Below are positions 2,760-17,081 of a DNA stretch of 46,708 bases, piece by piece. The position numbers were made by a program, and so were the translations under genes. The notes beneath the pieces are model-generated. The model searched no databases. It had not been told where the DNA came from and was given only the letters and a program-made list of their open reading frames with translations. The stretch lies in the NCBI GenBank assembly GCA_017482055.1, contig JAFUOH010000002.1, positions 1 to 46,708 on the forward strand. Reading direction: 5' to 3'. How positions within the stretch are numbered: the first letter of the stretch is position 1; every line of letters begins with the position of its first letter. Origin of the DNA: Clostridia bacterium (GTDB lineage Bacteria > Bacillota > Clostridia > Oscillospirales > CAG-272).

Positions 2760-2900
2760 AGGGTTTGGGATATCCCAACAAGCATTTTTCATTTTCGGGC
2801 AAGGGACCTGAAAATACGGAAAAATCGCAAGTGGGTACTCACTTGCTGTGCTTGCTATCGTAACTCTTTCGTTCTCTCCCTTCATCTAATAAAACAATTC
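2760..2900. other. Candidate origin of transfer (oriT) region
   Basis: The non-coding stretch directly upstream of the mobC-relaxase pair contains a perfect 14-bp palindrome TTGGGATATCCCAA (2765-2778) and an inverted repeat GCAAGTG-6-CACTTGC (2827-2833/2840-2846), followed by TGTGCTTGC. Relaxases of this class usually nick beside such a repeat next to their own genes. The nick site is not identifiable by eye. Confidence 0.45.
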
Positions 2901-2984
2901 AAAATGGGTAAAATGGCTGATTTTCCGAAAAAAGTTGCAAAAAAACTCTGTTTATACCGTGTCAAGATTTTGCGAACGCAATTA

Positions 2985-3012
2985 TTTACATTTCTCGGGT
3001 AAAATATATATA
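2985..3012 (+). promoter_or_regulatory. Candidate promoter of the cargo recombinase
   Basis: TTTACA (2985-2990), a 16-bp spacer and TATATA (3007-3012) sit 36 bp before the recombinase ATG. The boxes are flanked by GAACGC/GCGTTC (2974-2979 and 3013-3018), a small inverted repeat that could be an operator. The match is moderate. Confidence 0.4.
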
Positions 3013-3048
3013 GCGTTCTAATGAGAAAAACAAACAGGAGGACACGAT

Positions 3049-3903
3049 ATGTCAATAGAAACCATAACGCAAACACACTTAACCGCATTTGAGGAATATC
3101 TTTTGAGAGAAGAAAAAAGCGCGGCGACAGTGGAGAAATATCTCCGTGACGCTCGCGCTTTTGTGCTATATGCGGAAGGAAAAACAGTAACAAAGGAAAT
3201 GACTGTTGCTTATAAAAAATCGTTGGAGGACACAGGGTACAAGCCTCGTTCCATCAATTCAATGATTGCCAGTCTCAATAGTTTTCTTGATTTTTTAGGT
3301 GTTGCGGATTGTAAAGTAAAAACGCTCCGTATTCAAAAGCCCACTTATCTGACAGAAGAAAAAGAGCTGACAAAAGATGAATACAAACGCCTGCTTGCTG
3401 CGGCAAAGCATAAAGAGCAGTTAAATCTTGTGATACGGACGATCTGTGCAACGGGTATCCGTGTATCGGAACTGAAATACTTTACTGTGGAGGCGGTACG
3501 AAACGGCGAGGTATCCGTCAAGTGCAAAAGTAAAACCCGGACGATACTCGTTCCGGGAGATTTAAGAAAACTCTTATTAAGTTATGCTCATAAGCACGGT
3601 ATCACGGACGGCGTGATCTTCGTGACAAGAAACAGAAAGCCGCTTGACCGCAGTTATATTTGGGCGCAAATGAAGGGGCTTTGTGAAGGTGCGGGAGTGA
3701 ATCCGTCAAAGGTCTTTCCGCATAATCTCCGTAAGCTCTTTGCTCGCACATTTTACGGTATAGAAAAGGATATTGCAAAGTTAGCGGATATCTTGGGGCA
3801 CAGTAGCATTGAGACCACCCGTATCTATATTATGACAACGGGCAGTGAGCACAGACGGCAGATTGAACGCATGGGGATTGCACTTGCAGAGAGGTACGCT
3901 TAG
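3049..3903 (+). CDS. Tyrosine recombinase, probable DNA invertase of the adjacent promoter switch
   Basis: This 284-aa XerC/D-like recombinase has an N-terminal SAM-like core-binding domain (about 5-90) and a catalytic domain (about 105-280). The catalytic set is complete: R138 in ATGIRVSEL, a Lys near 161, H225 and R228 in PHNLRKL, H251 in LGHSSIETT, and nucleophile Y260. AGGAGG precedes the ATG. It is much shorter than the ICE integrase at 15423 and lacks an arm-binding domain, like recombinases that invert small segments. Only 16 bp after its stop begins the first of three copies of a 22-bp near-palindrome, one of them inverted. Inference: it flips the segment that controls the surface operon. 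A role in excision cannot be excluded. Confidence 0.9.
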   Translation: MSIETITQTHLTAFEEYLLREEKSAATVEKYLRDARAFVLYAEGKTVTKEMTVAYKKSLEDTGYKPRSINSMIASLNSFLDFLGVADCKVKTLRIQKPTYLTEEKELTKDEYKRLLAAAKHKEQLNLVIRTICATGIRVSELKYFTVEAVRNGEVSVKCKSKTRTILVPGDLRKLLLSYAHKHGITDGVIFVTRNRKPLDRSYIWAQMKGLCEGAGVNPSKVFPHNLRKLFARTFYGIEKDIAKLADILGHSSIETTRIYIMTTGSEHRRQIERMGIALAERYA

Positions 3904-3919
3904 CCGGGAAAATAAAAAA

Positions 3920-3941
3920 CCACATAATTCGCATTATGTGG
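3920..3941 (+). repeat. Inversion site 1 (left inverted repeat)
   Basis: This 22-bp near-palindrome has 9-bp arms CCACATAAT/ATTATGTGG around an asymmetric TCGC centre. The same sequence, fully reverse-complemented, occurs at 4257-4278. It lies 16 bp after the recombinase stop codon. Confidence 0.85.
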
Positions 3942-3972
3942 ATGACTGTATATTGCTGAGAAAAAGCAACCT

Positions 3973-3994
3973 TGACATAATTCGCATTATGTGG
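3973..3994 (+). repeat. Additional copy of the recombination site (site 2)
   Basis: Twenty of 22 bases match site 1 in the same orientation (identical from ACATAATTCGC onward), 53 bp downstream of it. It could serve as an alternative left site for inversion, or allow deletion of the 53 bp between sites 1 and 2. Confidence 0.75.
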
Positions 3995-4040
3995 AAACAA
4001 GGCTTAAAGCAAATGTGTGTACATAACAAGACACGGTAAT

Positions 4041-4069
4041 ATTATACACCAAAAACCCGATTTCGTCAA
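4041..4069 (-). promoter_or_regulatory. Promoter inside the invertible segment
   Basis: On the minus strand TTGACG (4069-4064), exactly 17 bp, then TATAAT (4046-4041): a near-consensus sigma-A promoter. In this orientation it drives transcription leftward, away from the surface operon. Confidence 0.75.
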
Positions 4070-4141
4070 GACCTTTGGAAAAGAAACCTGGGTCGCATTT
4101 GTAAATTCTTTCGGAACACTTCCAAAATGAGCATAACGATA

Positions 4142-4182
4142 ACACCCTCCGTCCGAATTTTTTTGAAAATTTCGGGAGGGTG
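4142..4182 (+). terminator. Hairpin within the invertible segment
   Basis: ACACCCTCC (4142-4150) pairs with GGAGGGTGT (4174-4182), and the inner AT-rich part also pairs (CCGAATTTTT with AAAATTTCGG). A loose T-rich stretch follows on the right (CTATTTTT at about 4196-4203). In the present orientation it would block read-through from the recombinase toward the operon. Confidence 0.5.
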
Positions 4183-4256
4183 TGCTTTCGTGCGTCTATT
4201 TTTCAGAGGGTAGTTTTTTACAGGACTATTCTTGTGCTGTTTCTTCGGTCGATCAT

Positions 4257-4278
4257 CCACATAATGCGAATTATGTGG
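4257..4278 (-). repeat. Inversion site 3 (right inverted repeat)
   Basis: It is the exact reverse complement of site 1 (3920-3941), including the asymmetric centre (GCGA here, TCGC there). Inverted orientation of the cores predicts inversion rather than deletion. It lies 95 bp before the first operon gene. Confidence 0.85.
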
Positions 4279-4373
4279 AGAGCCTAAACGGATACGCGCG
4301 GAAGGTCTGCGGTGTCCGTTAAAAAAAGCGAAAAATGTAGCAAGTGCTATTACGGAGGCTTATGTAAAGCGCG

Positions 4374-4967
4374 ATGAAGAACGAGAGAATTTACCGGGAG
4401 GTATTCATTAACAACACTATACGGCTTGTTGCAGAGGGTGGCTTTGAAAAGGCTACCACAAGGGCGATTGCGGGTGAACGCAAAGAGATCAATAACGTTA
4501 AGCTGAATGAGGCACACATTTACCGTGTATTCGGCACAAAAGAAAATCTCTTTGCGGAAACATTTTCAATGCTTGACAACGAACTCATATCCAACATTAA
4601 GGAGAGTTTGTCTGCCTTTGATACGGGAGCAAATTTTCGGAGTCAATGCGAAAATCTGTTTTTGAAGCTGTGGCGTTTACTTTTGCAGAATGAGGATAAA
4701 TGTAGATATTATACACGCTATTACTATTCCATCTATTTTAAGGAAAGCATCCGCAAGGCGCACATGAAAAAGTATGAAATCCTCATTGAAAGAATGACTC
4801 CGGCTTTTGTTCCGGGTGCTGATGTGTGGTCTCTCTTTCATCATATTATAACAGTTATGCTGGATTTTGCAATACGGGTTTATAACGGAGCGATTGAAGA
4901 TACGAAAGATAATGCAGCTCACATTTTCAACGTCGCCTATTCCTCTATTACCCCGTATTTGAAATAA
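4374..4967 (+). CDS. TetR-family transcriptional regulator
   Basis: This is a 197-aa TetR-like protein. Helix-turn-helix lies at about residues 8-60 (FINNTIRLVAEGGF ... AHIYRVFGTKENLFAETF), with an unusually long loop between the HTH helices; residues 65-190 form the helical ligand/dimer domain. GGAGG lies about 15 bp before the ATG, longer than normal, and an ATG TAA start-stop sits between them, so translation may be weak. It is the first gene after the invertible promoter and only 29 bp before the wall-anchored protein gene. Inference: it regulates the phase-variable operon, adding a second control layer. Its ligand is unknown. Confidence 0.85.
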   Translation: MKNERIYREVFINNTIRLVAEGGFEKATTRAIAGERKEINNVKLNEAHIYRVFGTKENLFAETFSMLDNELISNIKESLSAFDTGANFRSQCENLFLKLWRLLLQNEDKCRYYTRYYYSIYFKESIRKAHMKKYEILIERMTPAFVPGADVWSLFHHIITVMLDFAIRVYNGAIEDTKDNAAHIFNVAYSSITPYLK

Positions 4968-4996
4968 GATCAGAAAAAAACAAGGAGGTGGAGTCC

Positions 4997-6118
4997 GTGG
5001 CGGATACACTTAAAAGAATGAAGATCATTATTATTGTCCTATCCATACTGCTGGGGCTCAGCCTTGCAGCGTTGGCGGGAATTATCATTTACGGACAACT
5101 TGACCCGTCAAACGGTTCTGCCGTTATCCCCGATAATTACATAGAGCCGACAAGTAGCGGCGAACTGAATACAGGCGCGAAGGTAACGCAGCTCCGCACC
5201 GGTCCCGTTCTTCTTTGTGCTTCTGTTCCAACGGTCAATCTTTCCGGCAACATTCCCGTGATGGCACTTTCCAAAACGGTCATTACTTCGGACAGCGCAA
5301 AGGAAACGGTGATCTCCATTTACAAGAATCACGCTGAGGACAGCGAGCCTTTCAAGTGTTCCAATATGTTCCCCGGCGACAGCGAAACAAACGCCTATCT
5401 TGTAGAGGTATCCCACAAAGGAACCGTTACGGTTCGTTTTCACGCGGATATCCGAGCAGGCTACGAAAAGCTGGCTGAGGTTTTGAAATGCAAGATCGTT
5501 TTGAACGGCGACGAGACCTTATATGACGGTCTTATGCGTGATATGCCCGAAAGCATCAATCACCGTATATCTTCCATATTCAAGAAGACTACCGAGCTTA
5601 CCTATGATATTACGGTCTATTTGGATACGAGCGTCGGCAATGAGTATATGAACAAAGAACTTGTTGCAGACTTTCGCTGGTGGGTTGAGGAAAGCGGCGG
5701 CGATCCTACACCGCCTCCCGGTACAGACCCCGATGATCCGACCGATCCAAGTGATCCGACCGATCCAAGTGATCCGACTGACCCGAGTGATCCGACTGAC
5801 CCGAGCAATCCGACAGACCCAAGTGATCCTACAGACCCGAGCGATCCTACCGACCCAAGTGATCCTACAGACCCGAGTGATCCTACAGACCCAAGCGTTC
5901 CTACTGACCCAAGTGTTCCTACTGACCCAAGCGACCCAACCGATCCGATAGACCCCGATGACGGCGAGCTGGTATATCCTCCGCAGACGGGCGATAATTC
6001 CCATTTCTGCATTTGGTTCTGGATTGCTATGATCTCTCTGCTTATAAACATTATCCTCCTTTGGCCGAAACGCCGTAAGAATGCCGACGAAAAGGAGGAA
6101 ACAACAGCGAATGAGTAA
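4997..6118 (+). CDS. Wall-anchored stalk protein with DPTDPS repeats and LPXTG-like C-terminus
   Basis: This is a 373-aa surface protein. An N-terminal membrane/signal segment (about 10-33) is followed by a globular region (about 50-245), then twelve tandem DPTDPS-type hexapeptides (nt 5735-5950), and a C-terminal YPPQTGD motif, hydrophobic span and RRK tail. That end matches the sortase sorting-signal pattern, with PPQTG instead of LPXTG. No sortase gene is in the window. I chose the GTG at 4997, because AAGGAGG (4982-4988) is correctly spaced; the earlier GTG at 4988 overlaps the ribosome site. Its stop overlaps the next start by 8 bp. Likely role: a rigid stalk or anchor for the secreted matrix proteins encoded next. 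Confidence 0.8.
   Translation: MADTLKRMKIIIIVLSILLGLSLAALAGIIIYGQLDPSNGSAVIPDNYIEPTSSGELNTGAKVTQLRTGPVLLCASVPTVNLSGNIPVMALSKTVITSDSAKETVISIYKNHAEDSEPFKCSNMFPGDSETNAYLVEVSHKGTVTVRFHADIRAGYEKLAEVLKCKIVLNGDETLYDGLMRDMPESINHRISSIFKKTTELTYDITVYLDTSVGNEYMNKELVADFRWWVEESGGDPTPPPGTDPDDPTDPSDPTDPSDPTDPSDPTDPSNPTDPSDPTDPSDPTDPSDPTDPSDPTDPSVPTDPSVPTDPSDPTDPIDPDDGELVYPPQTGDNSHFCIWFWIAMISLLINIILLWPKRRKNADEKEETTANE
5735..5950 (+). repeat. Twelve tandem 18-bp units encoding DPTDPS
   Basis: Twelve 18-bp units encode six-residue repeats, with first-residue variants D, N and V and a final DPTDPI. Codon variants are mixed (ATCCG, ATCCT, GTTCC), but neighbouring units are nearly identical, so copy number could change by slippage or recombination. 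Confidence 0.9.
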
Positions 6119-6659
6119 ACAACCGAATACAGCAAAGCGATTGACGCTCAGCGTTATTATCGCAATTATCCTCGCCTGTTCTTTATGTATTACGACCTAC
6201 GCTCTGTTTTATGCCACCGTTACAGTGGAGGGCAACTATTTCAAAACGGGTATTATCAGTATTGACCTCAACGGCGGCAAGCCCGTTATTGAGGAACACG
6301 AATATCTCTTTGAGCCGGGTATGACGGTTGAAAAACCGTTTTACATACAAAATCAAAGTACCTGGGCGGTGTATTACAAAATATACCTTGATAACGTTGA
6401 GGGTGGTCTTGCCGACGTGTTGGAGATCACCGTCCTTGACGGTGACAAGGTTTTGTATGAGGGCACCGCAAGAAGTCTGACGCGGCAAAACGTGATCGCC
6501 GCCGATGATATTCTCCTGGTTGGAGAAAAGCGTGACCTTACCATCCGTTTCCATTATCCCGAAAACAGCGGAAACGCTACGCAGAATTATCAACTCAAAT
6601 TTGACCTCTGCGCAGACGCGGTACAGGAAAAGAACAACCCCGACAAGGATTTTGATTAA
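6111..6659 (+). CDS. Camelysin/TasA-type secreted protein with SipW-dependent signal
   Basis: This 182-aa protein has a signal peptide followed by TYALFYATVTVEGNYFKTG (about 24-42), the pattern of SipW-cognate substrates: hydrophobic core, Y/F-rich cleavage zone, then a conserved G before a beta strand. The rest is a beta-rich domain like TasA/camelysin (Peptidase_M73-like). No HExxH-type metal site is visible, so a structural rather than proteolytic role is likely. I take the ATG at 6111 (AAAGGAGG 12 bp upstream, 8-bp overlap with the previous gene) over one at 6081. The sipW-like gene follows 17 bp later, so substrate and peptidase are made together. Confidence 0.75.
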   Translation: MSKQPNTAKRLTLSVIIAIILACSLCITTYALFYATVTVEGNYFKTGIISIDLNGGKPVIEEHEYLFEPGMTVEKPFYIQNQSTWAVYYKIYLDNVEGGLADVLEITVLDGDKVLYEGTARSLTRQNVIAADDILLVGEKRDLTIRFHYPENSGNATQNYQLKFDLCADAVQEKNNPDKDFD

Positions 6660-6676
6660 CGGAAAGGAGGCAGCGC

Positions 6677-7363
6677 ATGAAAAAAGCATTAAACATCATA
6701 TCTACCGTTCTTGTGTGGGTACTTGTGGTCGCCACGGTGGGAATGATGATATTTACCTTGATTTCCGTTAACACCTTCGATCAGGCGAACAGAAGTATCT
6801 TCGGATATAAATTCTTCATTGTCCGTTCTGATTCAATGAGCAAGACGGATTTCGATGCGGGCGATATCGTCTTTGTAAAGAACGTTGACCCTGCTACCCT
6901 GCAGGTCGGTGATATTATCGCCTTTACCTCGCAGAACACAAACAATTTCGGTGATACCGTTACCCATAAAATACGAGAGATCACCACAAATGCCTACGGC
7001 GATCCGGCGTTCATTACCTACGGAACAACGACGGACACGAACGACGAGACCCCGGTTACATACCCTTATGTTCTCGGTAAATACACGGGTAAAATTCCCA
7101 ACGTAGGCTCGTTTTTTCAGTTTCTTAAAACGACGCCCGGTTATATTCTTTGTATTTTTGTTCCTTTTCTTCTGCTTATTCTGTATCAAGGATTTCAGTG
7201 CATCCAACTGTTCCGCAGATACAAGAAGGAGCAAATGGAAGAACTCCAAGCGGAGCGCGCAAAAATCGAAGAAGAACGCAGACAGTCAATGGAAATGATG
7301 AAAGAGCTGCAGGCACTCAAAGAGCAGCTTGCGGCAAAGGGACAGGATACGTCCAATCAGTAA
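6677..7363 (+). CDS. sipW: SipW-type (ER-type) signal peptidase I
   Basis: This 228-aa membrane peptidase would cut the signals of the TasA-like proteins in this operon. Membrane segments lie at about 8-32 and 150-172. The catalytic serine is S53 in RSDSMSKTD, and the ER/archaeal-type histidine is H97 in DTVTHKIR, replacing the Lys of ordinary SipS-type peptidases; this identifies the SipW class. The C-terminal 45 residues are an unusual charged coiled coil (KKEQMEELQAERAKIEEE). The ribosome site GGAAAGGAGG precedes the ATG. Its position between substrate genes matches the Bacillus tapA-sipW-tasA layout. Confidence 0.9.
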   Translation: MKKALNIISTVLVWVLVVATVGMMIFTLISVNTFDQANRSIFGYKFFIVRSDSMSKTDFDAGDIVFVKNVDPATLQVGDIIAFTSQNTNNFGDTVTHKIREITTNAYGDPAFITYGTTTDTNDETPVTYPYVLGKYTGKIPNVGSFFQFLKTTPGYILCIFVPFLLLILYQGFQCIQLFRRYKKEQMEELQAERAKIEEERRQSMEMMKELQALKEQLAAKGQDTSNQ

Positions 7364-7432
7364 GGTATAGGCAGCAGAAGGCTGTTTATATATATTCGTC
7401 AAACGAAAATACTAATAAGGAGGTAAAACAAA

Positions 7433-9283
7433 ATGACGAATAGCAAAACCACTAAGAGAGCATTGTTTAGCAGTGTTGTGGCACTCCTTCTCTGTTTCAC
7501 AATGCTTCTCGGGACTACGTTCGCGTGGTTCACGGACTCCGCTGCTTCCGGCAGCAACGTAATCACCGCAGGCAACCTTGACATTGTTGTTGAGTACACG
7601 CTTGACGGTACAAACTGGAACAATCTTGACGGTGCAACCGATCTGTTCCAGAAGGGTCTTTGGGAGCCCGGCCATACCGAGGTCGTTGCTCTCCGCATTA
7701 AGAACAATGGTACTTTGGCTCTGAAATATGCTGCCAATATGAACATTGTTAGTGAGACTACCGGTAAGACTAAGGACAATGCTGATATCGTTCTGTCTGA
7801 TATTCTTACTGTAAGCACACTTATTCAGCAGGCTGCTGATAAGGACGGTGTTGCAAACCAGATCGGCGATATCACCCTCGGTCTTGCATTCAATGGCGAA
7901 AATAGCGTAGCTTATCAGAACACTACCACATTCAAGGCTGGTAACGTTCTCGGCAACGATGAAGAACTTGAGCCTGGTGCAGCTCATTATCTGATCGTAA
8001 AGGTAGATATGGCTGAAAGCGTAGGCAACGAGGCTAACCACGATGGTACTCATATTCCTACAATCAACTTTGGCATCAATGTTCTCGCTACCCAGTTTAC
8101 TTACGAGAACGATAGCTTCGGCAATCAGTATGATAAGGATTCTACATATCCCGTTGTTGATACAATGGTAACTGCAGCAAACCTTGCAACCGTTGATTTT
8201 ACCGAGGAAAACACCAAATTTGTATTTAGTGGTACATTTGATGCTGTAACCATTTCTGAATTGGGTGATGGAAGTGTTATCGATTTTGATAATGCTACAG
8301 TAGGTGTATTGACCATTCAAGATGATGCTGTTCTGACTGGTAACGCAACGATTGAATCTTTAACTGGTGTTCGCAATGACAGCACTCCCATTGAGATGAC
8401 CATTTCCGATGCTACTTTGGATATTGCTGGTGATCTTAATGTGAAGAACACTATGAATGGTTCTGTGTTGAACATTGTGGATAGCTCCGTTGAATGTGCT
8501 TTCTTGTTTGTTGGTGAACACACCAATAATGCTACTGCTGCTTTGGCAGAATTTAATGTAATTAACAGTTACTTAAGATGTGAAGAAAACTCGATGGGCT
8601 CTACGATTTCTGTTTGGGGTCGTTCCGGCGTTAAGTCCACCATCTACGATAGCGAGATCCACACGTACAGCCGTGGTTGGCACTCTTCTGAGGACGCTAA
8701 TGACAATGCAATTACCTTCCAGGGAGCTACCAGCATTGATGTAGATATTCAGCGCTCTAATATTCATACTTACGGATACAGAAGCATTATCAACGCAAGA
8801 CAGTACGGTTCTGAAGCAACTACTATTAACGCAAGTATTGATGACTCTTTTATTTGGGTGATTACAAAATCTACTCACGATGCTAATACTGTTCCTGTAT
8901 GGGGATTTGATAGTATTACTGATACTGCACTTGTATTTACCAAGAATGTTGCTGCTTCCGTTGATCAGGTTGTTGATAGTAGCTTCGTTTATGGTAATCC
9001 TGTAATTCACGGCAATTTCAATCTTCATAGCAACTGCAACTGCAGCTGGGACGCTCATGTCGCATTGGATGATGAGACTGTGACTTTCGCAGCAGATGCA
9101 AATGTTTCTGTTGATGATGCCTGCATCGGAAGTCTGACCTTTGTGCTTTCCGATACTGCAAAGATTGTTGTTGAAGACGGAGCGACTGTTTCCGGCAAGG
9201 TAAATATTGTTGCAGCAGACGGTTACACACTCAATACTGTAACCGAAAACGGCGTGACTACTTATTCCGTTTCTGCTAACTAA
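7433..9283 (+). CDS. Large TasA-like secreted protein with beta-helix-like C-terminal part
   Basis: This is a 616-aa secreted protein. Residues 8-50 show the SipW-type signal: a basic start, hydrophobic core, GTTFAWFTDSAASGSN and then AGNLDI, the hallmark of TasA/camelysin substrates. Residues 50-230 form a TasA-like beta domain. Residues 240-616 consist of short repeated beta strands with many small and Asn/Asp residues (VDIQRSNIHTYG, TINASIDDSFIW), reminiscent of right-handed beta-helix or adhesin folds. AAGGAGGT lies well placed before the ATG. Codon use is A/T-richer (GCT, GTT) than in its neighbours, suggesting high expression or a separate origin. Probable main fibre or matrix component; the exact fold is inferred. 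Confidence 0.8.
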   Translation: MTNSKTTKRALFSSVVALLLCFTMLLGTTFAWFTDSAASGSNVITAGNLDIVVEYTLDGTNWNNLDGATDLFQKGLWEPGHTEVVALRIKNNGTLALKYAANMNIVSETTGKTKDNADIVLSDILTVSTLIQQAADKDGVANQIGDITLGLAFNGENSVAYQNTTTFKAGNVLGNDEELEPGAAHYLIVKVDMAESVGNEANHDGTHIPTINFGINVLATQFTYENDSFGNQYDKDSTYPVVDTMVTAANLATVDFTEENTKFVFSGTFDAVTISELGDGSVIDFDNATVGVLTIQDDAVLTGNATIESLTGVRNDSTPIEMTISDATLDIAGDLNVKNTMNGSVLNIVDSSVECAFLFVGEHTNNATAALAEFNVINSYLRCEENSMGSTISVWGRSGVKSTIYDSEIHTYSRGWHSSEDANDNAITFQGATSIDVDIQRSNIHTYGYRSIINARQYGSEATTINASIDDSFIWVITKSTHDANTVPVWGFDSITDTALVFTKNVAASVDQVVDSSFVYGNPVIHGNFNLHSNCNCSWDAHVALDDETVTFAADANVSVDDACIGSLTFVLSDTAKIVVEDGATVSGKVNIVAADGYTLNTVTENGVTTYSVSAN

Positions 9284-9306
9284 ACTATAAGTTACTATAA
9301 GTCCGT

Positions 9307-9377
9307 CCTATCCCTCCCCATGAGGGATAGGCGGCAATCAAAGGGCTCAAACATAGCGTTGAACCTTTTGATTGCCG
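9307..9377 (+). other. Two tandem hairpins between the TasA-like and LysM genes
   Basis: Hairpin A is CCTATCCCTC/GAGGGATAGG (9307-9316/9322-9331), a perfect 10-bp stem. Hairpin B is CGGCAATCAAAGG (9332-9344) with CCTTTTGATTGCCG (9364-9377), a long stem. Neither is followed by a U-run, so partial termination or mRNA protection and processing is more likely than full termination. They would set the ratio between the fibre gene and the genes downstream. Confidence 0.6.
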
Positions 9378-9410
9378 AAACAAGAAAATAACGAAAGGAG
9401 GGCTCGGATA

Positions 9411-11465
9411 TTGAAAAAGCGGGCTTTTGGAAAGCTATATAAAGAACTTTTCTACATTCCAAAGCACGAAAAGTTACCCGATAAAGTCTTTCGGTGCAGG
9501 ATGGTTCTATCTCTTTTGACGATCCTTGCTTGTACGGCGGTTATGGCGGCGTCAACCTTCGCGCTGTTCTATTCTGAGGTATCCACCGATCATTCCACCA
9601 TTGCAAGCGCGTATTATTCCGTAACGGTGGATAATGCCGAAAACGGTACATATATCTGTCCCCTTGTTTTTGAAGATAAGCACACCTTTGTGATAACCGC
9701 AAACGGAACCGCTACCACGGGTTATTGTAAAATTCAAGTCGGTGCGAATACCTATTACACCGAACAGATATTCAAGGACCAATCTTTAGTTCTGACCGTA
9801 CAGGCGGCAAAAGATACGCCTATCATATTCACTCCCGGTTGGGGTACGCTCTCCGAGGAAACTTGCGGAAATGAGATCAAACATTCTGAAACGCCATCCA
9901 CGGTCTATACGGTAGAACCCACGGCGAGACTTTCAAGCATTGCGGCGCATTACGGAGTTACCGAGGAAGATATCCTCATTTACAACAACCTTTTGGCGGC
10001 AACAGTTGACGAGGAAAGCTCTACTCCGCTTCTTCCCGTTGGTATGGAATTGAAAATACCCAACCCGGCAGAAAACGTGGAACCTTACAGAGTACCTTAT
10101 GCAACTTATATCGTAGAGCCGACAGCGACCCTTGACGCGATCTCCGCGTATTACGGCATTTCCGTTGAGGACATTATCGCGTTTAACGACATGACCGCCT
10201 ACGGCGTCGGTATGAGCTTGAAAATACCAAACACCGATCCATACCTCCCCGATTATGCGGTGCCTTACGCAATCTATGTTGTTGAGCCTACGGCAACGAT
10301 TGGTGCTATTGCGGCATATTACGGTGTGTCCGAGACGGATATTTTGAGTTACAACAACATTTCGGAAATTGCCGTTGGTATGGAATTGAAAATACCGGGG
10401 GCTACTACTGAAACAAGCTATGCGGTGCCTTATGCCGTTTATATTATGCAGGACGGCGCAACTCTTGATAATATCGCTATCCATTACGACGTTTCGATTG
10501 ACGATATTATTTATTACAACAATTATCCGAACTTGACTGTAGGATATGAATTGAAGATCCCCGGTGTTGCTTACGATTATCCGGCGTACAACTACGTTGC
10601 TCCTATCCCCGAGCCTCCGGCAAGTACGGATGAAAACACAAGCGACAATACCCAGGGCGAGAATAACAATCCTCCCGTTGTGGATGATACCGTTTCGAGC
10701 GGTGATGTAGGAACCGGCGAACAGCAGACCGAGCAGCAGCCCGCACAGGAGCCTGTCAGCGAGGAATTGGCTGTATTGTATCCGAACGATAACGATTATT
10801 ACCTCATTTCGGAAAGTACAATTACACTCAAAAATGCGGATATCCTTATTTACAAAGGGCACGAGTATGAAACGGTCGAAAGCTACCAAAAAGACCTTGA
10901 CCGTCGCATTACCGGCATTGAAGCCGTTGCAGATATCAATAACAAGACCGGAGAATATTTCTGCGAGCTGTTGACAAATGCGGAAACGCTCTCCCTCTGT
11001 CTTGAAATAACCGAGAATATTGAGCTGGGCTATTTGAAGATCATCATCGGTGAAAGCGAGTATTACACCGTCCAGCTCAAAAAGGACGCATATATCCGAT
11101 TGGATATCGTTGCTCCCATCGGTACAGAGATACGTTTTGAAGCCTATGAGGGTGTGCCTGTAGCAGATACTTTCTACGGAGACGATCTTAAAAACGATAC
11201 CGACGGAAACAATCCGCTTCTCGACCATACCTGGTTGGTGTCGCAGAATGTTGAGCCCGTCGATCCTGTTGGTGAGTCAACCGATCCGATAACTGAGGAT
11301 AATACCGTTTCCGACGATGATACTACACCGACAGAACAGCCTACGGTTGAAATTCCTACGGAAGATACCACATCTACCGAGGAAACACCTACAACGGAGC
11401 AACCGACAGAAGAACCTGCCCCTGCAGGTGATGAAGTTCCAACCGATACCGGCGCAACAGAATAA
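9411..11465 (+). CDS. Secreted protein with SipW-type signal and four LysM repeats
   Basis: This is a 684-aa protein. The N-terminus has a membrane/signal segment ending in ASTFALFYSEVSTDHSTIASAYY, again SipW-substrate-like. Four LysM modules follow, each of the form Y-VEPTA-L--IA-YYG---EDI--YNN---VGMELKIP (nt about 9904-10065, 10108-10232, 10276-10401, 10438-10563), which would bind peptidoglycan glycans. After an acidic linker comes a second beta domain (about 450-590) and a Thr/Glu/Pro-rich tail. I use the TTG at 9411, eight bases after GGAGGG; an upstream TTG at 9372 has no ribosome site. Likely role: non-covalent wall attachment of the matrix, complementing the LPXTG-like stalk. Confidence 0.8.
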   Translation: MKKRAFGKLYKELFYIPKHEKLPDKVFRCRMVLSLLTILACTAVMAASTFALFYSEVSTDHSTIASAYYSVTVDNAENGTYICPLVFEDKHTFVITANGTATTGYCKIQVGANTYYTEQIFKDQSLVLTVQAAKDTPIIFTPGWGTLSEETCGNEIKHSETPSTVYTVEPTARLSSIAAHYGVTEEDILIYNNLLAATVDEESSTPLLPVGMELKIPNPAENVEPYRVPYATYIVEPTATLDAISAYYGISVEDIIAFNDMTAYGVGMSLKIPNTDPYLPDYAVPYAIYVVEPTATIGAIAAYYGVSETDILSYNNISEIAVGMELKIPGATTETSYAVPYAVYIMQDGATLDNIAIHYDVSIDDIIYYNNYPNLTVGYELKIPGVAYDYPAYNYVAPIPEPPASTDENTSDNTQGENNNPPVVDDTVSSGDVGTGEQQTEQQPAQEPVSEELAVLYPNDNDYYLISESTITLKNADILIYKGHEYETVESYQKDLDRRITGIEAVADINNKTGEYFCELLTNAETLSLCLEITENIELGYLKIIIGESEYYTVQLKKDAYIRLDIVAPIGTEIRFEAYEGVPVADTFYGDDLKNDTDGNNPLLDHTWLVSQNVEPVDPVGESTDPITEDNTVSDDDTTPTEQPTVEIPTEDTTSTEETPTTEQPTEEPAPAGDEVPTDTGATE

Positions 11466-11557
11466 TTTACAAGGACTTCAAGCCCATCCGTGTACCGCAA
11501 GTAAGCGGCATGGGTGGGCTTGTTTGGTTATATACACACAAAAAGGACGATACCACA

Positions 11558-12523
11558 ATGACGAAAACAAAGCTGACGGGCGAGCTGCCCGGTCAAAGAG
11601 CCGGACGGCTTACCATAACAGATGAATATATAACGACAGACAAAGGCGAGAAAAAATATCTCTGCCGCTGTGACTGTGGAAATGAGAAATACATATTGGA
11701 GCGCACCTTGCGATACGGCGGTGCCACAAGCTGCGGTTGTCTGCGTAAAGAGAACGCCTACAAAGCTAATTCCCACGATCTGACGGGCAAGGTGTTCGGT
11801 GAGCTTACCGTCCTTCATAAAGCCGAAAATCAGCGTAAAAACGGCGGTGTTTGGTGGACGTGTCGGTGTTCCTGCGGAAATATATATGATGTGCCGGGCA
11901 CTCTCCTTGTCAAAGGTCGCCGTACCGATTGCGGACGTAAAAACCACGAAAAGAACTATGCAGCCTCCAATATCGAAGGACAGAAATTCTATCAGCTCAC
12001 AGCTCTGTATCCCACAAAAGAACGCGACAAGAAAGGCTCGGTGATCTGGCATTGTCGCTGTGATTGCGGTAATGAAATTGATGTGTCGTATAATTCTTTG
12101 GTCTATTCCAATATGCAGAGCTGCGGCTGCCGCAAAAAAGCGCACGATGAAAAGCTGGGGACATTTCTGACACACATTGCCGGTACGTCCCTTGATATGG
12201 TCAAAAGCAAAAAAGTACCGACAGATAATACCACGGGATACAAGGGCGTTTATCTGATAAAGGGAAAATACGTGGCAAAGATCGTCTTTCAAAAGAAGCA
12301 GTATTATCTCGGTGTTTTCGATCAGATCGAGGACGCAGCCAAGGCACGAAAAGAGGCTGAAGAAATCCTCTTTGATGGGTTTGCCGCCTACTACGAAAAA
12401 TACAAACAATTTGCCGACGCTGACCCGGAGTGGGCAAAGGATAACCCCGTTTCGGTCAGCGTAGAGAAAAAGCAGGACAATACCATATCCATCACATTTC
12501 TACCGGTGATGGAACAGGTTTAA
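11558..12523 (+). CDS. AP2-domain DNA-binding protein with three Cys-rich (CxCxCG...CGC) modules
   Basis: This is a 321-aa cytosolic protein. It has three repeated Cys modules: CRCDCGNE...SCGC (about 34-62), CRCSCGNI...DCGR (about 98-124) and CRCDCGNE...SCGCRKK (about 165-192), each likely a zinc-binding unit. A C-terminal AP2-like DNA-binding domain follows (about 225-285; GYKGVYLIKGKYVAKI ... YYLGVFDQIEDAAKAR). AP2 domains of this kind occur in phage and homing-endonuclease-derived proteins, but no HNH nuclease residues are visible. AAAAGGACG precedes the ATG; an in-frame ATG at 11510 has no ribosome site. It lies 92 bp after the LysM gene on the same strand. Its role is unknown; DNA binding is likely. 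Confidence 0.75.
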   Translation: MTKTKLTGELPGQRAGRLTITDEYITTDKGEKKYLCRCDCGNEKYILERTLRYGGATSCGCLRKENAYKANSHDLTGKVFGELTVLHKAENQRKNGGVWWTCRCSCGNIYDVPGTLLVKGRRTDCGRKNHEKNYAASNIEGQKFYQLTALYPTKERDKKGSVIWHCRCDCGNEIDVSYNSLVYSNMQSCGCRKKAHDEKLGTFLTHIAGTSLDMVKSKKVPTDNTTGYKGVYLIKGKYVAKIVFQKKQYYLGVFDQIEDAAKARKEAEEILFDGFAAYYEKYKQFADADPEWAKDNPVSVSVEKKQDNTISITFLPVMEQV

Positions 12524-12544
12524 TATTTTGACGGAGGAAATGAT

Positions 12545-13201
12545 ATGCGGGAATGGCCCAGCCTTATAGGACAAAAATTCGGTATGCTGACCGTGATAGG
12601 ACAAGCTCTGTCCACGGAAAAAGGACACCGCCGATGGATATGCAAATGTGATTGCGGTACAGAAAAGGTCGTATTGGGCAGCAATCTCAAAAGAGGTACT
12701 ACCGTTAGCTGCGGCTGCAAGCATACAAATGACCTCACAGGTCAAAAGATAGGAAAACTAACGGTTTTGGAGCGTTCCGACAAATACGGTTCTCGCGGCA
12801 AAAGAAAGGCTCAACTTTGGAAATGTCAATGTGAATGCGGAGCTATTACATACAAGGCAACGGACACTTTGACAAATCCCGATATCAGTATGTGCCAAGA
12901 ATGTGCCGGCAAATACGGTGCTCAAAGGGCCAGAGAAAATGCAGGATTTGAAGGCGGCACGCAAATATCAAAGATCAAGAACTGCCTGGACACATCAGAT
13001 AATTTCAGCGGTTTTCGCGGTGTTTACCGAGACGGAAAAACAGGCAAATTTAGGGCACGATTGAAATTCAAGGGCAAGCTATATAATCTGGGGAGCTTTT
13101 CTTCTCTGGAGGACGCCGTAAAGGCTCGTAAACGCGGAGAGGAAGAAATCTTCGGTAAATTTCTTGACGATATTGAAAATGCGTCAAACAACAGCCAATG
13201 A
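12545..13201 (+). CDS. Second AP2-domain DNA-binding protein
   Basis: This 218-aa paralogue of the preceding protein has one complete Cys module (CKCDCGTE...SCGCK, about 31-59), a second divergent one (CQCECGA...MCQECAGK, about 97-125) and the C-terminal AP2 domain (about 155-205, GFRGVYRDGKTGKFRARL ... YNLGSFSSLEDAVKAR). ACGGAGGAA lies correctly before the ATG, 21 bp after the previous stop, so the two are co-expressed. Keeping such a pair at the end of a phase-variable surface operon suggests regulation or interaction with the element DNA, but this is inference only. Confidence 0.75.
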   Translation: MREWPSLIGQKFGMLTVIGQALSTEKGHRRWICKCDCGTEKVVLGSNLKRGTTVSCGCKHTNDLTGQKIGKLTVLERSDKYGSRGKRKAQLWKCQCECGAITYKATDTLTNPDISMCQECAGKYGAQRARENAGFEGGTQISKIKNCLDTSDNFSGFRGVYRDGKTGKFRARLKFKGKLYNLGSFSSLEDAVKARKRGEEEIFGKFLDDIENASNNSQ

Positions 13202-13757: not shown

Positions 13758-13869
13758 CTTCACGCCCATTTTTTGAAACGCAAGACCGGCCGCGGTGCCG
13801 GTTGTCGCTCACCGCCCTTTCAATTCGCAGAAGGAAATCCACCCGAAACGAATTGAAAGGAGACTCTAT

Positions 13870-14424
13870 ATGAGCGACAGAAAAAATAATTTTCAAAAAA
13901 ATTCCGAAAATCAGCCAAAACGCCACTTCCCAAGACCTTTAATGGACGAAAGGGGAAAGAAAGACCTGCCTCCCGGCATGACGAAGGGAGGTGAGAAAAT
14001 GGAACTCGATCCCAAAGAAATCCAAAGGCAGCAGACCTTTGATAGCTTCTGCAAGAAGGTATTGAGGCATGAGGCCAACAACGGACACAGGGAGATCAAT
14101 CGGAGGGCACTTATGGAAATACCTATGAGTGAACTGCCGGAAGAAGCTATGGAGCAGCTTGCGGTTTACGATGAATATCCCTGGGACTACACCTCTTTCC
14201 AGGTTGGAAGTGAAACTGTGTATGTCAAGAATGACCGTCTGGCTGAGGCGTTGGCTGCTATTCCCGAAAAGGAACGCAATATCATCCTTATGTATTGGTT
14301 CCTGGATATGGCAGACCGTGAGATCGCTACCCACATGGGCATAGCGAGGCGAACGGTCAATACCCATCGGCAAAAAGGCTACGATCTGCTGAAAAAGCTG
14401 ATGGGAGGTGAAGCGGATGAATAA
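13870..14424 (+). CDS. RNA polymerase sigma-70-like factor of the ICE
   Basis: This 184-aa protein has a sigma region-4-like HTH at the C-terminus (about 130-180: AIPEKERNIILMYWFLDMADREIATHMGIARRTVNTHRQKGYDLL), where promoter -35 contact would occur. The middle holds the FDSFCKKVLRHEA motif typical of sigma-like proteins in Tn916/Tn1549-type elements. The ATG at 13870 follows GGAGA; a second ATG at 13999 has a better GGGAGGTGAG and also fits the family length, so the true start is uncertain. It overlaps the next gene by 8 bp. Likely role: regulation of ICE transfer genes. Confidence 0.8.
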   Translation: MSDRKNNFQKNSENQPKRHFPRPLMDERGKKDLPPGMTKGGEKMELDPKEIQRQQTFDSFCKKVLRHEANNGHREINRRALMEIPMSELPEEAMEQLAVYDEYPWDYTSFQVGSETVYVKNDRLAEALAAIPEKERNIILMYWFLDMADREIATHMGIARRTVNTHRQKGYDLLKKLMGGEADE

Positions 14425-14863: not shown

Positions 14864-15110
14864 CTCACAACAGGATAATGAGACTCCCTTACAGCTACAG
14901 TCCGAGCGTGCAGCCATTTATCAGGTGGCGAGGCGTCGCAGGCAATAGGTAGGGTCGCGCGAGAACCGCGTGAGGGTGAAATTCCCGTGGAGCTGAGCCA
15001 AGCAGCCGTCCGTTCAGCCTATTTATTTTTTCGGATAGAGTAAAGTTCTTTTCATTTACGGATAAATCGTAAATTTTTTATTTATTTCAAAAAAGCAGCA
15101 GACAAAAGAC
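14770..15110. other. Non-coding stretch between HTH gene and excisionase
   Basis: About 340 bp without a confident gene. The left part (14770-15010) is GC-rich with many short complementary runs (CCCGCAAG...CTGCGGG; GCGCGAGAACCGCG), and the right part is AT-rich. It could hold a structured RNA or decayed gene; I cannot assign it to a known RNA family. Confidence 0.3.
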
Positions 15111-15422: not shown

Positions 15423-16823
15423 ATGGCATCTATCATCAAACGTAAAAAGAATTATTCCGTTATATACAACTATGTTGACGAGAACGGAGAAACCAAGCAA
15501 AAATGGGAAACCTGGGGCACGCACAAAGAGGCCCTGAAGCGCAAAGCCGAAATTGAAAACCAGCAGCACACGGGAACATTTCTCCCGCCGAGCAATCAGA
15601 AGATATCCGATTTCCTTTTTGACTTCGTATCCTTGTATGGAGAAAAGAAGTGGGGCGTGTCTATGTACGACAGCCAAACTTCGCTGATTAACAACTATAT
15701 CAATCCGATTATCGGTGATATGGAGGTGCAGTCGGTTACACCTCGCGCCGTGGACGCATACATTCAGACCTTGCAAAAAACAAGGTCGGTATCCACCAAG
15801 ACGAGAAAAGCCACAACCACCTATGTCAGCAATCAGACCATCGAGAAGATTATCAAACTTCTGCGCTGCGCTTTCAAACAGGCGGTACGCTGGGAGATCA
15901 TCGGGAGAAACCCCTTTGATAATGTGATCCTCCCCAAGACGGAGTATAAGAAACGCGATATCTGGGACGCGGATATGATCCGCACCGCCCTTGATAAGTG
16001 TACGGACAGTAAACTCTATGTGGCAATGAACCTTGCCTTTGCCTGCTCTCTGCGAGTAGGTGAGATATTAGGGCTGACCTGGGATAACGTACACATTTCC
16101 GATGAAGATATTGCGGCCGACAATGCTTATGTTTACATTGACAAGGAATTGACGCGAGCCTCCAAGCGCGCGATCGAGACTTTGGGTGAGAAGGATATCT
16201 ACCATATCTTTACACCGCTTATGCCAAACACAAGTACGCGAATTATTCTGAAAAAGCCGAAAACGGAGTCAAGTATCCGTAAAGTATGGCTGCCTAAAAC
16301 CCTCGCCTATATTCTGTGCGAGTGGAAGAAGGCACAGGATGAAATCAGGAGCTTCCTGGGAGACGAGTATCAGGACTATAACCTGGTCGTTGCTCTCCCT
16401 AACGGACGGCCTTGTGAGGATCGTATCATCCTGAAGGAGTTTGCAAAGCTCCGTGAGGACGCAGGACTGCCCAGGGTGGTCTTTCACTCTCTCCGTCATT
16501 CCAGTACCACATACAAGTTAAAACTCAACCACGGCGATCTGAAGGCCACACAGGGCGATACAGGACACGCAGAGATTGACATGATTACAAGCGTGTACGC
16601 TCATATCCTGGATGAAGATAGAAAGGTCAATGCCCAAAAGTTTGAGACCGCCTTCTACTCCAACCCTGATTTGAGAGACGTCCGTCCTCCGGCAGAACCG
16701 AAGGAAACGGCACCCGCAACCCTTGATTTGGCAAGCCTGGTCGAGCAGCTTCAAAAATCACCCGAGCTTGCAAGTGCGCTGGCGGCGCTGATTGCCGCGC
16801 AAGCCCCCGCAAGTGGTCGCTAA
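15423..16823 (+). CDS. int: ICE integrase, tyrosine recombinase
   Basis: This 466-aa integrase has three parts: an N-terminal arm-binding AP2-like domain (about 1-55), a SAM-like core-binding domain (about 60-165) and a catalytic domain (about 175-400). Catalytic residues are R211 (SLRVGEIL), H355 and R358 (FHSLRHSS), H382 (TGHAEIDM) and Y392 (VYAHI). The Pro/Ala-rich tail after 410 is dispensable-looking. It catalyses integration and excision of the element. Its 3' end faces tRNA-Arg with three ATTAGCAAA repeats between, likely arm-type sites. AAAGGATATAAT precedes the ATG. Confidence 0.92.
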   Translation: MASIIKRKKNYSVIYNYVDENGETKQKWETWGTHKEALKRKAEIENQQHTGTFLPPSNQKISDFLFDFVSLYGEKKWGVSMYDSQTSLINNYINPIIGDMEVQSVTPRAVDAYIQTLQKTRSVSTKTRKATTTYVSNQTIEKIIKLLRCAFKQAVRWEIIGRNPFDNVILPKTEYKKRDIWDADMIRTALDKCTDSKLYVAMNLAFACSLRVGEILGLTWDNVHISDEDIAADNAYVYIDKELTRASKRAIETLGEKDIYHIFTPLMPNTSTRIILKKPKTESSIRKVWLPKTLAYILCEWKKAQDEIRSFLGDEYQDYNLVVALPNGRPCEDRIILKEFAKLREDAGLPRVVFHSLRHSSTTYKLKLNHGDLKATQGDTGHAEIDMITSVYAHILDEDRKVNAQKFETAFYSNPDLRDVRPPAEPKETAPATLDLASLVEQLQKSPELASALAALIAAQAPASGR

Positions 16824-17004: not shown

Positions 17005-17081
17005 TGGCATCCCGGATTGGAGTCGAACCAACGGCCTGTCGCTTAGGAGGCGACCGCTCTATCCTACTGAGCTACCGGGAC
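17005..17081 (-). tRNA. tRNA-Arg (anticodon CCT), CCA encoded
   Basis: The minus strand folds into a complete cloverleaf: acceptor GTCCCGG/CCGGGAT (one G-U), D-arm TAGCTCAGTAGGATAGAGC, anticodon stem GTCGC/GCGAC with loop CTCCTAA, T-arm with GGTTCGACTCC, then discriminator G and encoded CCA (17005-17007). The anticodon CCT reads AGG. It lies next to the ICE integrase and is the likely integration target. Confidence 0.93.

Follow-up and report, generated by a model that had tools for sequence, protein, structure and literature searches.

The window analysed here is the whole 46,708-nucleotide (nt) stretch of contig JAFUOH010000002.1 from a Clostridia bacterium (assembly GCA_017482055.1), and its left part carries a predicted phase-variation switch, consisting of a tyrosine recombinase gene, a short segment bounded by inverted crossover sites and an operon for putative surface proteins. 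An earlier note on this DNA had read the arrangement as a promoter that can be inverted by a linked tyrosine recombinase and that was sequenced OFF with respect to the operon. The recombinase open reading frame (ORF; positions 3049–3903, + strand) is intact, as the note had it, and encodes a 284-amino-acid (aa) Xer-like protein (Pfam Phage_integrase, 1.4e-22) with the conserved catalytic set R138, K162, H225, R228, H251 and Y260. Across 93 aligned recombinase rows, which take in the window and three duplicates, 87–89 rows share the same residue at each of these six positions, the remainder being gaps; one row of the 93 has G in the tyrosine column. The relatives with solved structures (n = 5) are XerC-like (4a8e, the nearest), XerA, XerD (twice) and XerH. 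The protein therefore has Xer-type catalytic residues and a sequence relation to Xer enzymes, and it scores under the NCBIfam Xer cut-offs. Its gene is single-copy in the window's genome (1.56 Mb, 54% complete), and we infer that the enzyme flips the adjacent segment.

The crossover sites begin 16 bp past the recombinase stop codon. Site S1 (3920–3941, + strand) and its inverted copy S2 (4257–4278, − strand) delimit a predicted invertible segment spanning 3920–4278, both outer sites included. The 22-bp site and exact reverse complement reported earlier at 3920 and 4257 are both present, but the perfect inverted repeat is in fact 26 nt long (3920–3945 and 4253–4278). Each repeat arm contains a near-palindrome with the core ACATAA-TTCGCA-TTATGT, a dif-like ACATAA-N6-TTATGT arrangement. 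A third core copy, S1b (3973–3994, + strand), which the earlier note missed, has the polarity of S1, an intact 18-nt core and two changed outer bases. No further copies were found elsewhere in the 1.56-Mb, 54%-complete genome at up to 3 mismatches to the 22-nt site. Moreover, 1.15 Mb of other sequence from relatives' loci contained 80 single sites and no inverted pair with identical 6-nt spacers, so the pair in the window exceeds chance. As a side observation, S1 and S1b stand as direct repeats at a distance of 53 bp; the recombinase could also delete 53 bp between them, and alternative use of the two sites could give two inversion end points with different leader lengths.

The single strong promoter inside the segment, TTGACG-17-TATAAT, lies on the minus strand at 4069–4041, matches 11 of 12 consensus bases and is directed away from the operon, the OFF orientation. 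It is the top of 11 promoter-like matches in positions 2900–7500, where 8.3 are expected, and is remarkable for its strength alone. Behind it lies a strong hairpin (4142–4183; −21 kcal/mol, z −3.5), a presumed insulator or terminator, and a leader hairpin (4287–4320, + strand) precedes the tetR-like gene that opens the operon. No + strand promoter-like match was detected between 4279 and 4374 at the scan threshold. Computed inversion between S1 and S2 would place the promoter at 4129–4157 on the + strand, facing the operon, 217 nt from the tetR-like start codon, or 164 nt with S1b. The near-consensus promoter, the hairpin between the sites, the operon devoid of a visible promoter and the flip that would aim one at it had all been claimed in the earlier note and were recovered here. 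On the minus strand, S1 also forms a 9-bp stem followed by TTTTTTATTT at 3919–3910, a feature that had escaped notice; the palindrome and T-tract together (3910–3941, − strand) resemble an intrinsic terminator facing the recombinase gene, one of 8 terminator-like sites in 2900–7500 (4.5 expected). It looks like a terminator ending a leftward transcript 7–16 nt before the last base of the recombinase gene, and termination there is predicted.

The notion that the promoter spacer is a conserved operator was rejected: the 29-nt promoter, at up to 3 mismatches, occurs only in the window's genome among 394. Nine partial matches (18–26 of 29 bases) are promoter-like and stand ahead of other ORFs, with no crossover sites within their 1.6–2 kb flanks; the closest of the nine, G155, is not among the hits in the 394-genome sample.

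The operon extends from 4374 to 11465 on the + strand, with intergenic gaps of −38 to 88 bp. A TetR-like regulator (4374–4967; Pfam TetR_N, 2.8e-6) is followed by a protein of wall-anchored type (4988–6118), whose translation shows a hydrophobic N-terminus, DPTDPS repeats, a PPQTG motif, a hydrophobic stretch and a basic tail, and which had no family match in searches with Pfam and NCBIfam-type models. Next come a camelysin/TasA-like protein with a SipW-type signal (6081–6659; PF12389, 4.5e-5; TIGR04088, 20.6 bits, cut-off 19), a SipW-like signal peptidase (6677–7363; TIGR02228, 5.8e-20), a large TasA/camelysin-like protein, also with a SipW-type signal (7433–9283; PF12389, 1.6e-6; TIGR04088, 19.5 bits, cut-off 19), and a LysM-repeat surface protein (9372–11465; Pfam LysM, 5.3e-20). 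The camelysin matches are weak yet above the Pfam cut-off, and the peptidase passes TIGR02228 but falls below the cut-off of the stricter SipW model (NF046067, 1.3e-24). The operon thus combines a SipW peptidase with camelysin-family substrates bearing SipW-type signals, the camelysin and signal scores being barely over their cut-offs, and its products may form surface fibres.

To place the locus in a wider context, relatives of the recombinase were collected. A contig scan confirmed 193, of which the best 80 of 193 (55–76% identical; mostly from Clostridia according to the source records) were retained, and when the window's family was searched at the DNA level, 76 of 295 genomes gave matches, the best of which supplied 29 more loci. 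Together with the window this made 110 recombinase loci, and 13 with less than 330 nt after the gene were set aside. Two sites follow the recombinase gene in 93 of the remaining 97; those without are L036, L058 (which has a diverged repeat), L073 and L078 (with only 360 nt of flank). Removal of three duplicates left 90 unique two-site loci, in which the paired sites lie 206–449 bp apart (median 262). Thirteen of the 93, among them the window and one duplicate, have additional site copies that share the spacer.

Tyrosine recombination demands identical spacers within a site pair, and spacers may vary between loci. The central 4 nt of the paired sites were identical in inverted polarity in 89 of the 90 unique loci, the exception being L068, and never when read as direct repeats (0); between loci, identity was found in 170 of 8010 comparisons (2.1%). 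All 18 recombinase-match regions fetched later also had an identical-spacer pair, although one of them (G016:C60) was already in the earlier set. A proposal that private spacers insulate co-resident switches from each other was not upheld: 9 of 11 co-resident pairs differ, yet 2 of 11 share a spacer against a background of 75 in 4005, and avoidance is unsupported.

The interior of the segments is conserved in kind. Promoters scoring at least 10.5 point away from the downstream cargo genes in 41 of 90 loci and toward them in 11, with both in 4 (control, 4.8%). Of the 50 labelled loci whose promoter scores at least 10, 46 have their strongest hairpin behind it, where the available room alone would predict 67%, and in 46 of 50 the best hairpin beats one plain shuffle of its own segment. 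A T-tract (at least 6 T in 8) accompanies the S1 side in 15 of the 19 site-bearing loci of L004–L024 and the operon side in none, this grouping and threshold having been picked after inspection of the data.

At E < 1e-55, 33 of the 98 genomes sampled from the window's family have the recombinase, with up to four copies per genome, as do 3 of 199 genomes across the phylum, the window's own genome being counted in both. Plasmid relatives comprise 8 records; of three examined, two share the site arms and the third has a diverged pair. Viral contigs contributed 6 loci, and the two with room for a second site both have the pair. The diverged plasmid pair, AGACAAAAACAACATTTCGT, lies ahead of an S-layer-domain protein in a Pusillibacter faecalis plasmid (L144, from 8846), whose recombinase is 50% identical to that of the window; site and recombinase seem to have changed together.

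Orientation was compared among homologues with every locus turned so that its recombinase reads rightward. In L066 and L068 the recombinase (96% identical) and the downstream sequence (85%) align in the same direction, whereas the inner segments (89% over 170 nt) align in the opposite one. L093 and L109 behave likewise (recombinase 85%, downstream 80%, inner segment 81% over 203 nt, opposite), L038 and L068 show an inverted segment between collinear flanks, and L043 and L053 do the same but without downstream similarity. Altogether, 254 inner-segment pairs aligned at E < 1e-5, 75 of them in opposite directions. From promoter strength, 47 of the 90 loci could be assigned a state with confidence (37 OFF, 10 ON). 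Wherever both loci of an aligned pair had been assigned one, the alignment direction matched (49 of 49 pairs, among them all 15 opposite ones); these 49 pairs have loci in common and are not independent. Propagation of direction through the alignments labelled 72 of the 90 loci, 59 OFF and 13 ON, redundant alignments being sign-consistent in 202 of 203 cases. The opposite orientation, which the earlier note proposed to seek in other genomes, is therefore present among homologues, and the predominance of OFF labels suggests that the majority of populations are OFF. A quickly built recombinase tree has 86 rows, four of the 90 having been left out, though not for an early break in the gene, and 33 of its 83 inner branches are weak. 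Explaining the 12 ON rows on this tree takes 12 changes, at least 6 of them forced by well-supported branches, compared with a shuffled mean of 11.3. Orientation thus behaves as a freely changing trait, with ON states scattered and no phylogenetic signal. The window's own segment aligns with that of L004 in the same direction (46 nt, 78%).

The locus has inverted repeats around a short segment, a promoter inside it, an adjacent intact recombinase and homologues in both orientations, an anatomy that is conserved throughout the family. We consider it very probable that it is a phase-variation switch on a mobilizable island, sequenced OFF, that flips the promoter of a surface-fibre operon, and the reading first given in the earlier note is the best one in this respect. 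According to this model, the recombinase would exchange strands between S1 (or S1b) and the inverted S2, flipping the 0.36-kb segment. In the OFF state, the only strong segment promoter would read toward the recombinase, its transcript ending at the terminator-like S1, while the hairpin at 4142–4183 would guard the operon against read-through. After inversion, the promoter (4129–4157) would face the operon with the hairpin behind it, and the tetR-like gene, the wall-anchored protein, the two camelysin/TasA-like proteins, the SipW peptidase and the LysM protein would be transcribed. Flipping in this strain and expression of the operon would be expected to give surface fibres that are ON in a fraction of cells.

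Several observations weigh against this interpretation. No near-identical second copy of the window locus was found, and inversion in this strain is inferred from homologues. The window's segment aligns in the opposite direction only with that of L016 (Hespellia stercorisuis, called ON; 70 nt, 74%), and it shares with the ON-called L012 a 17-nt match in the same direction that is probably due to chance. Among the homologues, 43 of the 90 loci had no confident promoter call, L093 and L109 also match weakly in the same direction (85 nt, 76%), L088 and L105 form the one inconsistent alignment pair, and the ON homologue L068 has unequal spacers in its two sites. A T-tract at S1 was found in just 20 of the 90 loci overall (operon side, 4 of 90); set beside the count in L004–L024, this indicates that the terminator-like S1 belongs to the window's own subfamily. 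Finally, fibre function is based on weak family matches, and no solved-structure sequence match was found for the products of 7433–9283 and 6081–6659.

The fact that a single orientation was assembled here would also fit a former switch that is now fixed OFF in this strain, its recombinase being unexpressed or inactive, and the unequal spacers of L068 are a precedent for a switch that may be locked, in that case ON. Nevertheless, the recombinase ORF of the window is intact with all its catalytic residues and the inverted repeat at S1 and S2 is perfect over 26 nt, and we regard a fixed state as unlikely.

A different role for the promoter was also considered, in which the segment is not an ON/OFF switch for the operon and the leftward promoter instead makes an antisense or small RNA controlling the recombinase. 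Promoters scoring at least 10.5 do usually face the recombinase (41 versus 11 of 90), and the earlier note had suggested that the leftward transcript could run antisense to this gene. However, the terminator-like S1 would halt the transcript 7–16 nt short of it, and antisense control was set aside because S1 is terminator-like and its T-tract recurs in the closest loci. Cargo genes, moreover, often begin shortly after S2, and the strongest hairpin, situated behind the promoter at 46 of 50 loci, likewise speaks for a switch of the operon. An RNA-based role thus appears very unlikely.

The genes downstream of the switches are diverse. Downstream sequence of 3 kb or more is available for 61 unique loci, counting the window. 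Profiles grown from the window's proteins detected a SipW or TasA-like gene there in 17 of them, 16 of which have both, and found neither in the sequence upstream of the 90 unique loci (3 kb or more in 54). The majority, 44 of 61, thus have cargo of another kind. Of 156 ORFs in first or second position downstream, 66 were searched with Pfam, the choice falling mainly on loci that lack SipW. This gave 69 families, and the 25 of these that were shown include SPFH/Band 7 (9), InlB-type repeats (6), BspA leucine-rich repeats (5), collagen repeats (4), cohesin (4) and dockerin (3). Single cargo members resemble defence proteins: segments stand ahead of PLD-helicase/DrmD-like, type IIG restriction and TIR genes in L082 (11131–14310) and other relatives, which suggests that defence may be phase-variable at such loci.

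Genome G314 contains parts of the window's operon at 79–88% nucleotide identity. Because it pairs these similar operon parts with a recombinase only 57% identical to that of the window and with a different spacer, the comparison indicates that cargo is swapped between switches. Such recombination of switch and cargo is what would be expected if the sites served cargo gain, loss or swapping, with the inverted pair a by-product and the promoter unswitched, but the paired sites are inverted, 206–449 bp apart and never match as direct repeats, and homologous segments occur in both orientations between collinear flanks, making this the least plausible of the explanations.

The switch cassette is likely carried by an integrative mobilizable element, since genes for a MobA/VirD2-type relaxase (1120–2448, − strand; Pfam PF03432, 1.4e-38) and a NikA/MobC-like mobilisation protein (2409–2885, − strand; Pfam PF21983 and PF05713) lie to its left, and to its right a second tyrosine recombinase, the island's presumed integrase (15423–16823, + strand; Pfam Phage_integrase, 3.7e-14), ends 181 bp ahead of a tRNA-Arg(CCT) gene, the presumed attachment site (17005–17081, − strand; ARAGORN, Rfam). 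No second copy (at least 13 nt) of the tRNA region that could be the left attachment repeat was found in the window, where the contig begins at base 1. Relatives of the relaxase occur in 15 of 52 loci (those of L004–L083 with sites and about 4 kb or more upstream); mobilizable islands are common hosts of the switch, although not established as universal ones.

Two further features of the region were observed. After the operon, at 11510–13201, two adjacent genes match phage HNH endonuclease families (phrog_374), and relatives or parts of these genes lie near the switches of L008, L011, L016 and L071. An Rfam pemK RNA motif (14875–14990, + strand; 54.8 bits against a gathering threshold of 34.8) lies downstream of a sigma-like gene (13795–14424), and its region has a 94% identical stretch in genome G003.

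To our knowledge, phase variation is less charted in gut Firmicutes than in Bacteroides. The present findings would place genes for matrix fibres under a heritable on/off switch borne by mobile DNA, and the signature of a recombinase plus an inverted ACATAA-N6-TTATGT pair would allow switch, state and cargo to be read from an assembly. In a broader reading, to which we give an even chance, the family constitutes a widespread modular platform of gut Clostridia. Its components would be an Xer-like invertase, dif-like sites whose spacers are specific to each locus, and a segment with promoter and hairpin; they would move on islands and stand ahead of exchangeable cargo, ranging from SipW/TasA fibres, giant adhesins and SPFH proteins even to defence-like helicases. 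In the window's subfamily at least, the crossover site would serve as a terminator too. If so, the OFF transcript would end inside the recombination site and the recombinase would be spared antisense RNA.

Elements in which a tyrosine recombinase is linked to an invertible promoter are already known. What is new here is the terminator-like S1 facing the recombinase, the cargo swapping between switches and the likely location on a mobilizable island. The available text of a 2025 study in Microbiome (PMC11892184) describes an inverton group 139 of 33 invertons, 32 from Clostridia and nearly all beside a tyrosine recombinase, which is tied to invertase group 35 and has a repeat motif termed novel; read data there show orientation shifts of this group in culture, one linked to growth on mucin carriers. 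Host class and nearby tyrosine recombinase are common to both sets, and two example start-to-start spacings (231 and 241) fall within the 206–449 found here, whereas the main text of PMC11892184 contains no SipW, TasA or signal peptidase and its available text describes no in-site terminator. Group 139 is probably, though unproven, the same family as the switch of the window, judged by host class and spacing, not by motif. No title on SipW/TasA operons under an invertible promoter appeared among the literature matches listed, and SipW/TasA cargo, a terminator-like site, a three-site layout and switch-cargo exchange were not encountered among those matches or in the available text of PMC11892184 and PMC5903667. 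By the description in the latter, C. difficile RecV likewise is a tyrosine recombinase of a Clostridia member that flips short control segments of surface genes. RecV, however, acts on several switches (PMC5903667, available text), whereas each recombinase here abuts one site pair.

The resemblance to Xer/dif lies in the enzyme, whose solved relatives are all Xer-type, and in the sites of the window, which have two short inverted arms around a 6-nt centre. The dif site consists of two short inverted arms around a 6-nt centre. The present system differs in its single linked recombinase, its near-symmetric arms, its sites in at least two inverted-order copies 206–449 bp apart and its number of recombinase copies, which reaches four in one genome, and it is at least in part borne by mobile islands; the three linked sites of the window, one of them inverted, do not correspond to a single chromosomal dif for dimer resolution. 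In Bacillus, TasA/SipW is a fibre operon, and the window matches it in having a SipW-like peptidase, SipW-type signals and camelysin-family proteins. In contrast to the Bacillus operon, the family scores here are weak, TetR-like, LysM and wall-anchored proteins are added, and control is presumably exerted by a flipping promoter.

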